Shown: positions 7,184-13,458 of the stretch, piece after piece
Position numbering within the stretch: position 1 is the stretch's first letter
Layout: every line of letters starts with the position of its first letter
Made by a program: the position numbers and the translations under genes
The notes under the pieces: generated by a model
Databases searched by the model: none
Told to the model about the DNA's origin: nothing
What the model saw: the letters and a program-made list of their open reading frames with translations, nothing else
Virus record (IMG/VR): IMGVR_UViG_3300035145_001554
Location: 1-24,938 of that record
From: a virus
Length of the DNA stretch: 24,938 bases
Strand: one strand, 5' to 3'

Positions 7184-8458
7184 TCACCAGGGCGACTGAC
7201 TCACTTTTCCATCATTCAAGGTAGGAGAAACCGCGAGGGTGAATCGTCCAACGGATGGATGGAAGTCAAAGTTCGTTGCCATGCTTTCCCCGTTCCTGTT
7301 CTTCGCGACATTGAAATGGATTTCTCGCTTATCGTAGTCTGTCCCATCATCGGAACGCGAAAGGAGAAACACGCAGTCCGCGTCTTGCTCGATGGACCCA
7401 CTCTCGCGCAGATCGGAGATCACGGGTTTCCTGTTCTGCGTTTCCAAGGCTCTATTCAATTGGCTAAGTGCGAGAATCGGTACACCCAGCTCCATCGCGG
7501 TCTGCTTCAAGACGCGAGAAATGTAGCTCACCTCTTGCACGCGGGAGTCATGTCCAGGTGCGGAGAGGAGTTGCAAGTAGTCAATTACCGCAAGACCTAC
7601 CCTACCCTGTATCACCTCTTGGGCGAGAAAGGCGCGGAATGAGTCCACCGTGGCCGAGCTATCATCCTTGAAGGTAATAGGCCATGACTTCATGCGGTTC
7701 TTTGTACCTTCCAGCTTCTTGCGGTCCTCCGCAGAAAGGTCACCCTCTTTGCGCGGGCGGGCAACCCCACTATCATGGGAAAGCAACCGCCCGGCACATT
7801 CCGCCGCACCCATCTCCAGCGATGCATACGCTACCCTCAATCCATGACGGGCAATCCCATAGGCGAGTTGTACCGCAAACGCAGACTTCCCTACTCCAGG
7901 GCGAGCCGCTAAGACATACAACGCACCTGGGCGGAAGCCACCTCCGAGAATGAGATCCAGCTTATTGAATCCCGTACTCACCGCAGAGGAGTCACCCGCA
8001 TCCACCCTGAGAAACTCCGAGTATGCTTCGTTCCCCGCGGAACCGCACTTCACTTGTCCTCTTCCCTTGGAGATGGACTTGGCAACGCGGGTAGTGAAAC
8101 TACCAGCCACATCTTCCGCACTCTTACCTTCTTTGATCTCATCCTGAGCATAGAGAATTGCTTTCTCCACGGAACGGAGGTTCCGGCTCTCGATCAGGTG
8201 ATCGATATATCGATCTATTGATCCGCCGCCATGCTTCTCCGCAATGGATACAGCATCGGTAGCTATGCTAGGCTCATGGATAGCGATATCGATTTCATTA
8301 CAGGGTGTATGCTTTCCAACGAGGTCGAATATCTTTTGGTGCGTAGGATTTACGAAGTCCTCATCCGTGAGACGCTCAAGAGCGAGGGCGGAGCATTGTC
8401 CGCTCTCATCTCTGAGACATCCAGCGAGGACTGCTTGTTCGGCAATATGGAAATCCAT
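7184..8458 (-). CDS. dnaB: Replicative DNA helicase, DnaB family
   Basis: A 424-aa ring helicase that unwinds DNA at the replication fork using ATP. The N-terminal helical domain (residues 1-100) is followed by a linker and a RecA-like domain from about 155. Walker A is 'ARPGVGKS' (185-192) and Walker B is 'LAVIDYLQLL' with Asp293; 'LSQLNR' (331-336) and 'LRESGSIEQDAD' (350-361) are also typical of DnaB. The length is slightly below that of bacterial DnaB (about 460-470). I chose the ATG at 8458 because it overlaps the loader gene's TGA (TGATG) and because 'MDFHIAEQAVLAGCL' is the usual family start; an upstream ATG at 8521 is less likely. It is the last gene of the replication operon. Confidence 0.95.
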   Translation of the reverse strand: MDFHIAEQAVLAGCLRDESGQCSALALERLTDEDFVNPTHQKIFDLVGKHTPCNEIDIAIHEPSIATDAVSIAEKHGGGSIDRYIDHLIESRNLRSVEKAILYAQDEIKEGKSAEDVAGSFTTRVAKSISKGRGQVKCGSAGNEAYSEFLRVDAGDSSAVSTGFNKLDLILGGGFRPGALYVLAARPGVGKSAFAVQLAYGIARHGLRVAYASLEMGAAECAGRLLSHDSGVARPRKEGDLSAEDRKKLEGTKNRMKSWPITFKDDSSATVDSFRAFLAQEVIQGRVGLAVIDYLQLLSAPGHDSRVQEVSYISRVLKQTAMELGVPILALSQLNRALETQNRKPVISDLRESGSIEQDADCVFLLSRSDDGTDYDKREIHFNVAKNRNGESMATNFDFHPSVGRFTLAVSPTLNDGKVSQSPW

Positions 8459-8949
8459 CAGATAACTTTTACTCCTTGATGTATTTGTTTCTTCGCACCC
8501 TCGAACTTCGATGGTAGCCAACTACGACATGCGTTCCGATAGGTTGCTATCCAATCAGCGTAAACTTTTCCTCCACCAATCGCCCAATCCATGAACGCGG
8601 CCACCGCTTTCTCGTGGTCGAGTCCATGCGCCTCGGATATCTCCCGTGGTGGGTCAAAGTCTTCGGGTATTTGCTTTGCTCTTTTTTTCTTAGAATTATC
8701 AGGAGTCTTTTTTAAAGACGACTTTTCCACAATTTGCGAAGACGGACTATTGTTAGGAGTAAAATTGTTAAATTTTACGACTACTTCGCGTGTGCGCGCG
8801 AGGGCTTGCCACAAATCCTCCACAATATATCCACAAATTGTGGAAGATGGGGTCTGTCCATATACTTCACAATACTCTTCTAAGATTGCATGATGCTTCT
8901 CAGGTAAGCGTACCCGAAGCTCTTTAGTTTTAGTATCTTTCTTCGCCAT
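8458..8949 (-). CDS. Helicase loader/replication initiator-like protein with RHH N terminus
   Basis: A 163-aa protein directly before DnaB, and coupled to it. Residues about 9-50 ('ELRVRLPEKHHAILEEYCEV...') look like a ribbon-helix-helix DNA-binding domain. Residues 60-100 form a polar linker rich in Asn, Ser and Lys. Residues 114-146 carry 'FMDWAI...YADWIATYRNACRSWL', which resembles the C-terminal 'F..YW...DW..tWrnW' segment of phage replication proteins such as O- and DnaT-like primosome proteins. The likely role is to bind the origin and bring DnaB to it. The gene contains an iteron array (8723-8843), as lambda O does. The loader role is inferred from the C-terminal motif and gene order. 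Confidence 0.6.
   Translation of the reverse strand: MAKKDTKTKELRVRLPEKHHAILEEYCEVYGQTPSSTICGYIVEDLWQALARTREVVVKFNNFTPNNSPSSQIVEKSSLKKTPDNSKKKRAKQIPEDFDPPREISEAHGLDHEKAVAAFMDWAIGGGKVYADWIATYRNACRSWLPSKFEGAKKQIHQGVKVI
8723..8843. repeat. CCACAA iterons and DnaA-box-like site; candidate origin
   Basis: CCACAA occurs at 8809-8814, 8820-8825 and 8831-8836, exactly 11 bp apart. The last copy is part of the palindrome CCACAAATTGTGG (8831-8843). TTTTCCACA (8723-8731) fits the DnaA-box consensus TTWTNCACA, and AT-rich DNA (8755-8780) lies between. Because 11 is not a multiple of three, the periodicity cannot come from a protein repeat. The layout resembles the lambda origin inside gene O. Confidence 0.5.
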
Positions 8950-9715: not shown

Positions 9716-10711
9716 TTAAGCCGCCTCCTTTTGAGATTTCTTTGCGTTATCCATCTTCACCGCCTTCGCGAAGTCTGCGATTTCGTACAGCTTGCGATTC
9801 CCAAGGTAAGTGAAGTTGAGTTTGTAGTCTCTTAGCATCCGATACACATAGGTACGACTTACATCGAAGTGCTTCGCCATATCTTTGATGCATAACTTGT
9901 CTGCCTTGATTGATGACTTCCTCTCCACATCAAGCGGAACCACATTATCCGCATAGCCGGGGAAGTAATTACTTTGTGTACACTCAGCCCATATTCTGCA
10001 CGCCTTGTACATAGCATTTGTCTGTGATTCTATCTCAGATGTATTAATACTATATGCCGCCGTGAGATACGGTGCTTTCTTCTCTACTGCTAAGAATATA
10101 AACTCGGTAGGTTTCTCGCCAGCTAGGCGAAGTCCTTCGAGATACCATGCACATTGGAACGCATAACCATAGGTTCTTACGCTCTTAGAAAATCCACGAG
10201 CAGATGCATCAACTGTGCTTTTTAAATCAATCACCACACCCGCACCGGGCAGATATAAGTCAGGGCGTACCTTGCACTTCGCGCCTTCGCACTCAAAGTA
10301 TGCAGTTCCCTCAATCACCGCATCCTGTTCCGCCAGGTACTGCTTTAAGATTGGATGATCCAAGGCAGAGGATGCCATATCGCATACATATTCATATTCG
10401 GATTCCTCAAGCCATTTTATATGAGGCTCTTCCGCTTGCATCTCTGCGAATATTTCCTTGTAGGCGTTACATCTTGGACCCTTGCCACCAAGCTGTGCTG
10501 GCTTTACCGCAAACTCGGATTCAAACCTAGCTGGCTCAAGTGTAGCAGTATGAAACGCATCCCCGATTATAAGTGCGGGGGTAGCGGGAGATGGATTCTC
10601 GCGGTCATGCTTCACCTTCGCTGGGCATGTGGTGAGGAGGTTCCACGCAGTCGAGCGAGATAACTCGCTCGACCCGTGGTACGCTTCGTTCGGAATGTCG
10701 CGGACTAACAT
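9716..10711 (-). CDS. RecE/exonuclease VIII-like PD-(D/E)XK nuclease with C-terminal HTH
   Basis: A 331-aa protein. Residues 1-255 form a RecB/RecE-type nuclease: 'GDAFH' (50-54) is motif I, Glu134 follows, Asp151 lies in 'VRPDLYL', Asp162-Leu-Lys164 in 'VVIDLKST' is the catalytic centre, and Gln186-x3-Tyr190 is the QxxxY motif. RecE-like enzymes resect double-strand ends for single-strand annealing. Residues about 272-322 ('IKDMAKHFDVSRTYVYRMLR', then 'YLGNRKLYEIADFAKAV') form a MerR/excisionase-type helix-turn-helix, an unusual addition that could target or regulate. The gene overlaps the upstream DnaA-like gene by 7 nt. No annealing protein was recognised nearby. Confidence 0.82.
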   Translation of the reverse strand: MLVRDIPNEAYHGSSELSRSTAWNLLTTCPAKVKHDRENPSPATPALIIGDAFHTATLEPARFESEFAVKPAQLGGKGPRCNAYKEIFAEMQAEEPHIKWLEESEYEYVCDMASSALDHPILKQYLAEQDAVIEGTAYFECEGAKCKVRPDLYLPGAGVVIDLKSTVDASARGFSKSVRTYGYAFQCAWYLEGLRLAGEKPTEFIFLAVEKKAPYLTAAYSINTSEIESQTNAMYKACRIWAECTQSNYFPGYADNVVPLDVERKSSIKADKLCIKDMAKHFDVSRTYVYRMLRDYKLNFTYLGNRKLYEIADFAKAVKMDNAKKSQKEAA

Positions 10712-11007
10712 ATTACTGCGTTCTTTTTAAGTGCGGGATACTCGTCCTCGATACCTTCCAGCATCGCACGAATTTCGGGATCGCATTCACGCCACTCCTT
10801 GATGCGGCGAACCGCATGAGTCACATTTGTATGATCGCGGTCAAACTTCTTGCCCACTTCCATACGGGTAAGCCCGGAGCAATAGGAATAAAACATCGCG
10901 ATTTGCCGAGCTAATGCGATCTTCCTCAGACGGCATCGGGAATTTAACTGCTGTAAAGTTACTCCCATATTTTCCGCCACCACTTTTTTGATTTTCCCAA
11001 CCGTCAT
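10705..11007 (-). CDS. Stand-alone DnaA domain IV-like DNA-binding protein
   Basis: A 100-aa protein resembling only the C-terminal DNA-binding domain of DnaA. It has 'RKIALARQIAMFYSY' (28-42), corresponding to the basic loop and helix, 'GLTRMEVGKKF', and then 'DRDHTNVTHAVRRI' (56-69), the signature that reads the DnaA box. The AAA+ ATPase part is absent, with no sign of frameshift, so it is a free DNA-binding domain. It may bind DnaA boxes in the phage origin or compete with host DnaA. The start overlaps the upstream stop as TGATG. Confidence 0.82.
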   Translation of the reverse strand: MTVGKIKKVVAENMGVTLQQLNSRCRLRKIALARQIAMFYSYCSGLTRMEVGKKFDRDHTNVTHAVRRIKEWRECDPEIRAMLEGIEDEYPALKKNAVIC

Positions 11008-11877: not shown

Positions 11878-12075
11878 ATGCCAAAAAAAGAAGGACTTAC
11901 CCAACCTGTGAATATCAGGTACAGCAAGTATGTGCGTGAGCGCGTTAAGCAGATTGCTCAAGAGACGGGACTGATGCAGTCTCAGGTCTTTGACTATGTT
12001 CTAATCGGCGCGTTAGAAGCTCTTGAAGGCGAACAAGGTCTTCAGTTGCCTGTGAAGCTGAAAGTAGACCGATAA
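11878..12075 (+). CDS. Ribbon-helix-helix regulator (65 aa)
   Basis: Residues about 10-52 fit a CopG/Arc-type ribbon-helix-helix fold: the strand 'PVNIRYS', helix 'KYVRERVKQIAQETGL', turn 'MQSQ' and helix 'VFDYVLIGALEAL'. Such proteins dimerise through the strand, which sits in the major groove. The start at 11878 (MPKKEG) was preferred over an in-frame ATG at 11839 that lies in the operator-like repeats. No antitoxin partner (toxin) is adjacent. The 3' half overlaps a possible antisense gene (11945-12196). It is likely an autoregulated repressor acting on the divergent promoters. Confidence 0.75.
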   Translation: MPKKEGLTQPVNIRYSKYVRERVKQIAQETGLMQSQVFDYVLIGALEALEGEQGLQLPVKLKVDR

Positions 12076-13304: not shown

Positions 13305-13344
13305 GATTAAGAGTCTCCTGCTCTACCAACTGAGCTACGCCGGC
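13305..13344 (-). other. 5' half of a tRNA-Lys(CTT) gene; probable attP core
   Basis: On the minus strand, 40 bp match a tRNA 5' half: acceptor 5' strand GCCGGCG, TA, D arm (GCTC-AGTTGGTA-GAGC), A, anticodon stem GGAGA and the loop CTCTTAA with anticodon CTT, then TC. After that the sequence cannot complete the anticodon stem (TCTCC expected, TCGAT seen), and no matching acceptor 3' strand is present, so it is not a working tRNA. Beside the integrase it is best read as the attP core identical to a host tRNA-Lys gene. Confidence 0.7.
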
Positions 13345-13433
13345 ATTTAGTTGAATCTTTATCGACCGAGGATCGATGAGATGCACCAAAAACACAAAAG
13401 ACATTCGTGTCAACTATTAACAAAAAAAAGTGC

Positions 13434-13458
13434 AAAAAAAAGCGGGGTTTCCCCCGCT
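13434..13458 (-). terminator. Rho-independent terminator of the structural operon
   Basis: On the minus strand AGCGGGG and CCCCGCT form a perfect 7-bp stem closed by a GAAA tetraloop (13441-13458), followed by seven T residues. It lies 64 bp after the 902-aa gene and ends the long structural transcript before it would reach the tRNA fragment and the integrase. Confidence 0.9.

Follow-up and report, generated by a model that had tools for sequence, protein, structure and literature searches.

A 5' tRNA-Lys(CTT) half beside the integrase gene of a viral contig: probable attachment site in marine Opitutales and relatives carrying the opposite half

Introduction

Integrating elements that target tRNA genes predominantly carry the 3' half of the gene, a bias commonly attributed to the requirement that the host promoter be retained. 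In the Islander catalogue, 3,760 of 3,919 islands bear a 3' tRNA fragment and 159 a 5' fragment (PMC4383910). The viral contig IMGVR_UViG_3300035145_001554 from IMG/VR (linear, 24,938 bases; the whole stretch is referred to here as the window) carries the 5' half of a tRNA-Lys(CTT) beside a tyrosine recombinase (integrase) gene, int, and this segment is very probably the phage half of the attachment site (attP) for the tRNA-Lys(CTT) gene that marine Opitutales have in one copy. Tyrosine integrase, tRNA target and 5' tRNA fragment are shared with the Islander 5'-fragment islands; those islands were mapped in the integrated form (PMC4383910), whereas the phage is seen here in its free form only, and relatives within the present family use either half.

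The marine T7-like cyanophages P-SSP7 and S-TIP37 integrate transiently without lysogeny, and their int likewise lies beside a 39-bp attP that is identical to the front half of a tRNA gene in the host (PMC8776855). A marine origin and hosts in which no intact prophage was found (isolates in the cyanophage case) are further common points. The two systems differ in the target, cyanobacterial tRNA-Leu instead of Opitutales tRNA-Lys, and in the layout, as the cyanophage attP is downstream of int while that of the window is upstream, between promoter and int (PMC8776855). Of the known cases, the cyanophages caution most directly that the presence of such a site is no proof of lysogeny.

The 5' half is also used by pTN3-type archaeal integrases, whose own promoter then drives the rebuilt tRNA, an arrangement described in a review as seldom met in bacteria (PMC8371274). 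A rebuilt tRNA parted from its own promoter and expressed from that of the integrase is likewise predicted for the window, in which int stays wholly downstream, whereas the pTN3-type att site is inside int and the gene is split on integration (PMC8371274, PMC5495485). In ICEKp1, transcription of the integrated int from the host tRNA promoter was measured, and the free form uses another promoter (PMC13023037). A position of int behind the host tRNA promoter after integration, together with use of that promoter, is predicted here as well, in contrast to ICEKp1 in that the host tRNA there retains its own promoter. Actinobacteriophages with tRNA-dependent lysogeny also combine a tyrosine integrase, tRNA-Lys and a lysogen tRNA that depends on phage DNA, but a complete phage tRNA complements the destroyed host tRNA (PMC10865867), whereas here half a tRNA is supplied and the gene is rebuilt. 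The 5'-half arrangement is rare rather than new.

The tRNA half and its host gene

Read on the minus strand from 13344 to 13305 (the reverse complement of 13305-13344), the window carries GCCGGCGTAGCTCAGTTGGTAGAGCAGGAGACTCTTAATC, which starts at the 5' end of the tRNA, spans the anticodon loop and includes the first two bases on the 3' side of the stem. Of ~85,000 species genomes scanned, only five contain the 40-mer; the assemblies bear the titles Opitutales, Opitutia or Verrucomicrobia, and in all five it forms nucleotides 1-40 of an intact tRNA-Lys with anticodon CTT. Among 273 genomes of the host order, the same five alone were recovered. The borders of the identity are exact: it runs from tRNA nucleotide 1 to nucleotide 40 and no further on either side. 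Past nucleotide 40 the host tRNA runs on as TTTTGGTCG or TCTTGGTCG and the window as GATAGTGG, and 5' of nucleotide 1 no stretch common to the window and any of the five hosts was found. Chance can be excluded from the sequences as the origin of the 40-mer, because it is exact, stands in tRNA register and recurs beside int in 12 other phage contigs. No complete tRNA was found by ARAGORN in the window.

The first-pass annotation, made from the letters of the window alone, had read 13305-13344 as the 5' end to the anticodon loop of a tRNA-Lys(CTT) diverging within the 3' strand of the anticodon stem. The host gene it proposed to search for was found in the five assemblies, which match the segment exactly over that extent, and the contrary case it had named, a host tRNA identical to the phage in its 3' half, was not encountered, the identity being confined to the 5' half. 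An element that integrates into a tRNA gene and carries its 5' fragment is expected to have an attP identical to the front part of that gene and stopping within a known crossover region, and the segment displays this pattern. Each of the five host genomes contains one tRNA with a CTCTTAA loop, and three of them also have a match with the loop CTTTTAA, presumably tRNA-Lys(TTT). A host assignment to marine Opitutales (Verrucomicrobiota) is thereby gained for a group of otherwise unassigned viral contigs.

Integrase and upstream signals

The ATG of int lies 36 bp downstream of the tRNA half, and both are transcribed in the same direction. The integrase is full length, with a PF00589 (Phage_integrase) domain at 35.5 bits against a cut-off of 27.1 and with R201, H287, R290, H314 and Y324 invariant in 15 relatives, that is, with the domain and the conserved catalytic residues of a phage tyrosine integrase. 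A tblastn comparison of the integrase with annotated phages returned no match at the limit used.

Upstream of the tRNA half is a candidate phage promoter, weak by consensus. Its TTGACA box on the minus strand (13413-13408), pointed out in the first-pass annotation, is present, and the TTGACA/TTTGGT pair was not listed by a consensus promoter scanner. An intrinsic terminator separates the upstream gene from the unit of promoter, attP and int, and most relatives, whichever tRNA half they carry, show a terminator and then a TTGAC box upstream of attP. The host tRNA-Lys genes have TTGACC followed by poor -10 boxes, for example TAATTT or TACTTT.

Predicted junctions and promoter swap

When phage and host sequences were cut in the anticodon loop and recombined in silico, the phage-left plus host-right product was recognized by ARAGORN as tRNA-Lys(CTT) in all five hosts, and the host-left product joined to the integrase side contained no tRNA. 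Since the other junction yields no tRNA, the rebuilt gene necessarily has the phage 5' half, and therefore the DNA upstream of it is phage DNA. The earlier proposal that insertion joins the host 3' half to a phage-supplied 5' half agrees with these in silico products, which hold an intact tRNA for every host. Its corollary, a rebuilt tRNA relying on a phage promoter, is supported as far as the anatomy goes: the DNA upstream of the rebuilt gene would be that of the phage, and use of the phage promoter is a prediction.

These data are very probably explained by a promoter swap, a reading carried by the 40-nt identity with its exact boundaries, the host tRNA, the tRNA rebuilt in silico, the layout and the relatives with the opposite half. 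It has precedents in known systems (PMC8371274, PMC8776855). The integrase would act at attP and exchange strands in the anticodon loop, CTCTTAA, within a phage order of terminator, promoter, tRNA 5' half and int, all in one direction. Insertion would create one junction in which the phage 5' half and the host 3' half together make a whole tRNA downstream of the phage promoter region, and another in which the host promoter and host 5' half read into int. The phage promoter, if active, would serve int in the free phage and then the tRNA once integrated, int in the integrated state lying behind the host tRNA promoter, and a stable lysogen would result. In this 5' type, the phage would gain control of the transcription of a host tRNA that exists in one copy.

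Relatives with the 5' half

The 5' half is present in 13 contigs when the window is counted; of the 12 others, five have it exactly and seven (L115, L120, L123-L126 and L133) with the one-base stem variant GAAGA. The same 5' half accompanies integrases 74-82% identical to that of the window in L002-L004 and more distant integrases in L031 and L034, contigs of 36-37 kb. The DNA upstream of nucleotide 1 differs among the window group, L031 and the L034 group. Because the identity still begins at nucleotide 1 in these three lineages, the pattern is as expected if selection acts on tRNA function and not on the captured segment.

A short open reading frame (ORF) upstream of the tRNA half is conserved in L034 and in all seven contigs with the stem variant. 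It enters the tRNA 5' half and ends at the TAA of the anticodon loop, and its product reads MSN...NLEF...GRRSSVGRAxDS in most cases, that of L115 beginning with MTN. The same start serves again as the int start in L117, which, set against L034, looks as if a deletion had joined int in frame to the short ORF.

Relatives with the 3' half and a switch of the carried half

At the same place, L127, L137, L147 and L148 carry CTCTTAATCTTTTGGTCGTGGGTTCGAATCCCTCCGCCGGTACCA; in host L028 this sequence makes up the 3' half of the tRNA gene whose 5' half the window carries. In 27 further contigs, the 3' half belongs to a sister tRNA-Lys(CTT) with a different acceptor stem, found intact in 7 of the 273 genomes of the same order. 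The 3' halves terminate at CCA, and in both types the half has the same orientation and lies upstream of int. The crossover is placed in or at the anticodon loop because the 5'-half and 3'-half types overlap only at CTCTTAATC. In L147 and L148 the int reading frame continues upstream without a stop across the tRNA 3' half, and their attP may be part of int itself, the situation known from pTN3 or SSV.

The two types interleave in integrase trees. The 3' type L127 falls with the 5'-type clade of L034 and L031, separate from the window group (support 99/92 to 100/97). From these trees it is certain that the carried half changed at least once, and two changes are favoured. A single clade of all 5' types is disfavoured, appearing in 0% of bootstrap trees, with a borderline approximately unbiased (AU) test (p = 0.042). 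It is likely that one integrase family, acting at the same tRNA-Lys(CTT) loop, has switched the half it carries, possibly twice, with the order of promoter, attP and int unchanged. If so, the choice of half is evolvable and not fixed by the integrase. No description of a single integrase family that uses both halves of the same tRNA gene was found in the literature covered, which does not include the classic sublocation survey (Williams 2002). With either half of the same gene set in closely comparable layouts, the family offers a natural experiment on the 3'-half rule, and the two types allow comparison of promoter strength, integrase control and lysogen fitness.

Evidence against the proposed promoter swap and alternative explanations

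Several observations weigh against attachment at the tRNA-Lys(CTT) gene with a promoter swap. No prophage, attL or attR was detected in the 273 genomes of the host order, whose bins are incomplete, or in viral contigs; the first-pass annotation had called for a search for prophages with this integrase, and none was found. The best integrase match in the 273 genomes had 31% identity, none being close, and the five host genomes gave no close match. Complete tRNA-Lys(CTT) genes with such flanks were absent from the viral contigs, and the phage-related contigs in host bins had no int or att. A search with structural proteins retrieved one phage contig in a host bin (G255:C497, 28.5 kb, 70% identity), which is without int and the tRNA half and so provides no junctions. 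In addition, the window is likely incomplete as a 24.9-kb linear contig, and loss of the CTT gene may be non-lethal in some hosts, given the probable tRNA-Lys(TTT). L096, L097 and L136, whose integrases are the nearest relatives beyond the window group, have a decayed or altered site. The -10 box of the candidate promoter (TTTGGT) is poor as well, which is not a strong objection because host tRNA-Lys genes likewise have poor -10 boxes.

The missing prophages also suit an outcome like that of the T7-like cyanophages, in which integration at tRNA-Lys(CTT) is transient only, without stable lysogeny. The att site and junctions would be the same, and the rebuilt tRNA would matter only during short host survival. 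This is a serious possibility, to which we give somewhat less than an even chance. Against it, the host genomes are mostly metagenome bins, where prophages often go missing, the perfect preservation of the entire tRNA half points to selection for a functional tRNA, and the window encodes a possible repressor with weak PHROG matches.

It is improbable that the tRNA half is left over from a former target and that the phage now uses another site or does not integrate. Relatives do point to such histories: L117, L138-L142, L145, L150 and L180 are without attP and the integrase N-terminus, and the site is altered in L096, L097 and L136. The half in the window, however, is perfect over 40 nt to extant hosts, and its integrase is full length with conserved catalytic motifs. 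Still less credible is tRNA-dependent lysogeny, in which the host tRNA is destroyed on integration and the phage supplies a complete one, in spite of its being a known phage route at tRNA-Lys sites (PMC10865867). That route combines a short common core with a complete phage tRNA of the same isotype, whereas the stretch shared here is 40 nt, not a core of ~10 bp, and rebuilds the tRNA, and no complete tRNA above the Rfam cut-off was found in the window or the 12 related records.

Altered sites and neighbouring genes

In L096, L097 and L136 the site reads GAGCAGTAGACAATCAATCTTTTGG or CAACCAA and the start of the tRNA half is degenerated, so that the site has decayed or been retargeted. In the contigs without a tRNA half and without the N-terminal part of the integrase, int begins shortly past the TTGAC promoter. 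The coordinates of the features are collected in Table 1.

Table 1. Features of the attachment region and neighbouring genes (window coordinates unless a relative is named)
Feature	Position	Strand	Basis or remark
Integrase (tyrosine recombinase), 334 amino acids	12264..13268	minus	PF00589, phrog_1, phrog_216, alignment of relatives
attP region	13305..13344	minus	nucleotides 1-40 of host tRNA-Lys(CTT); exact match to five Opitutales genes and phage relatives
CTCTTAATC	13305..13313	minus	sole stretch common to 5'-half and 3'-half relatives (attP types compared)
CTCTTAA, 7-nt anticodon loop	within 13305..13313	minus	likely overlap (crossover) region; position inferred
Candidate promoter: TTGACA, 17 nt, TTTGGT	13385..13413	minus	sequence and comparison
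Intrinsic terminator: AGCGGGG GAAA CCCCGCT, then T run	13441..13458	minus	
Ribbon-helix-helix-like protein	11878-12075	plus	
Ribbon-helix-helix-like protein, L031	13793-14035	minus	
Ribbon-helix-helix-like protein, L034	1459-1662	plus	
163-amino-acid protein	1478-1969	minus	weak PHROG matches to transcriptional regulators and repressors
100-amino-acid protein	10705-11007	minus	DnaA C-terminal origin-binding domain, PF08299, 61 bits
DnaB-like helicase	7184-8521		

A small ribbon-helix-helix-like protein is conserved beside int on the opposite strand in the window, L031 and L034 phages and is a candidate regulator or excisionase; the window copy gave no Pfam or PHROG match. The 163-amino-acid protein is, judging from its matches, a possible lysogeny repressor. 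The phage protein with the DnaA domain is encoded near the DnaB-like helicase gene.
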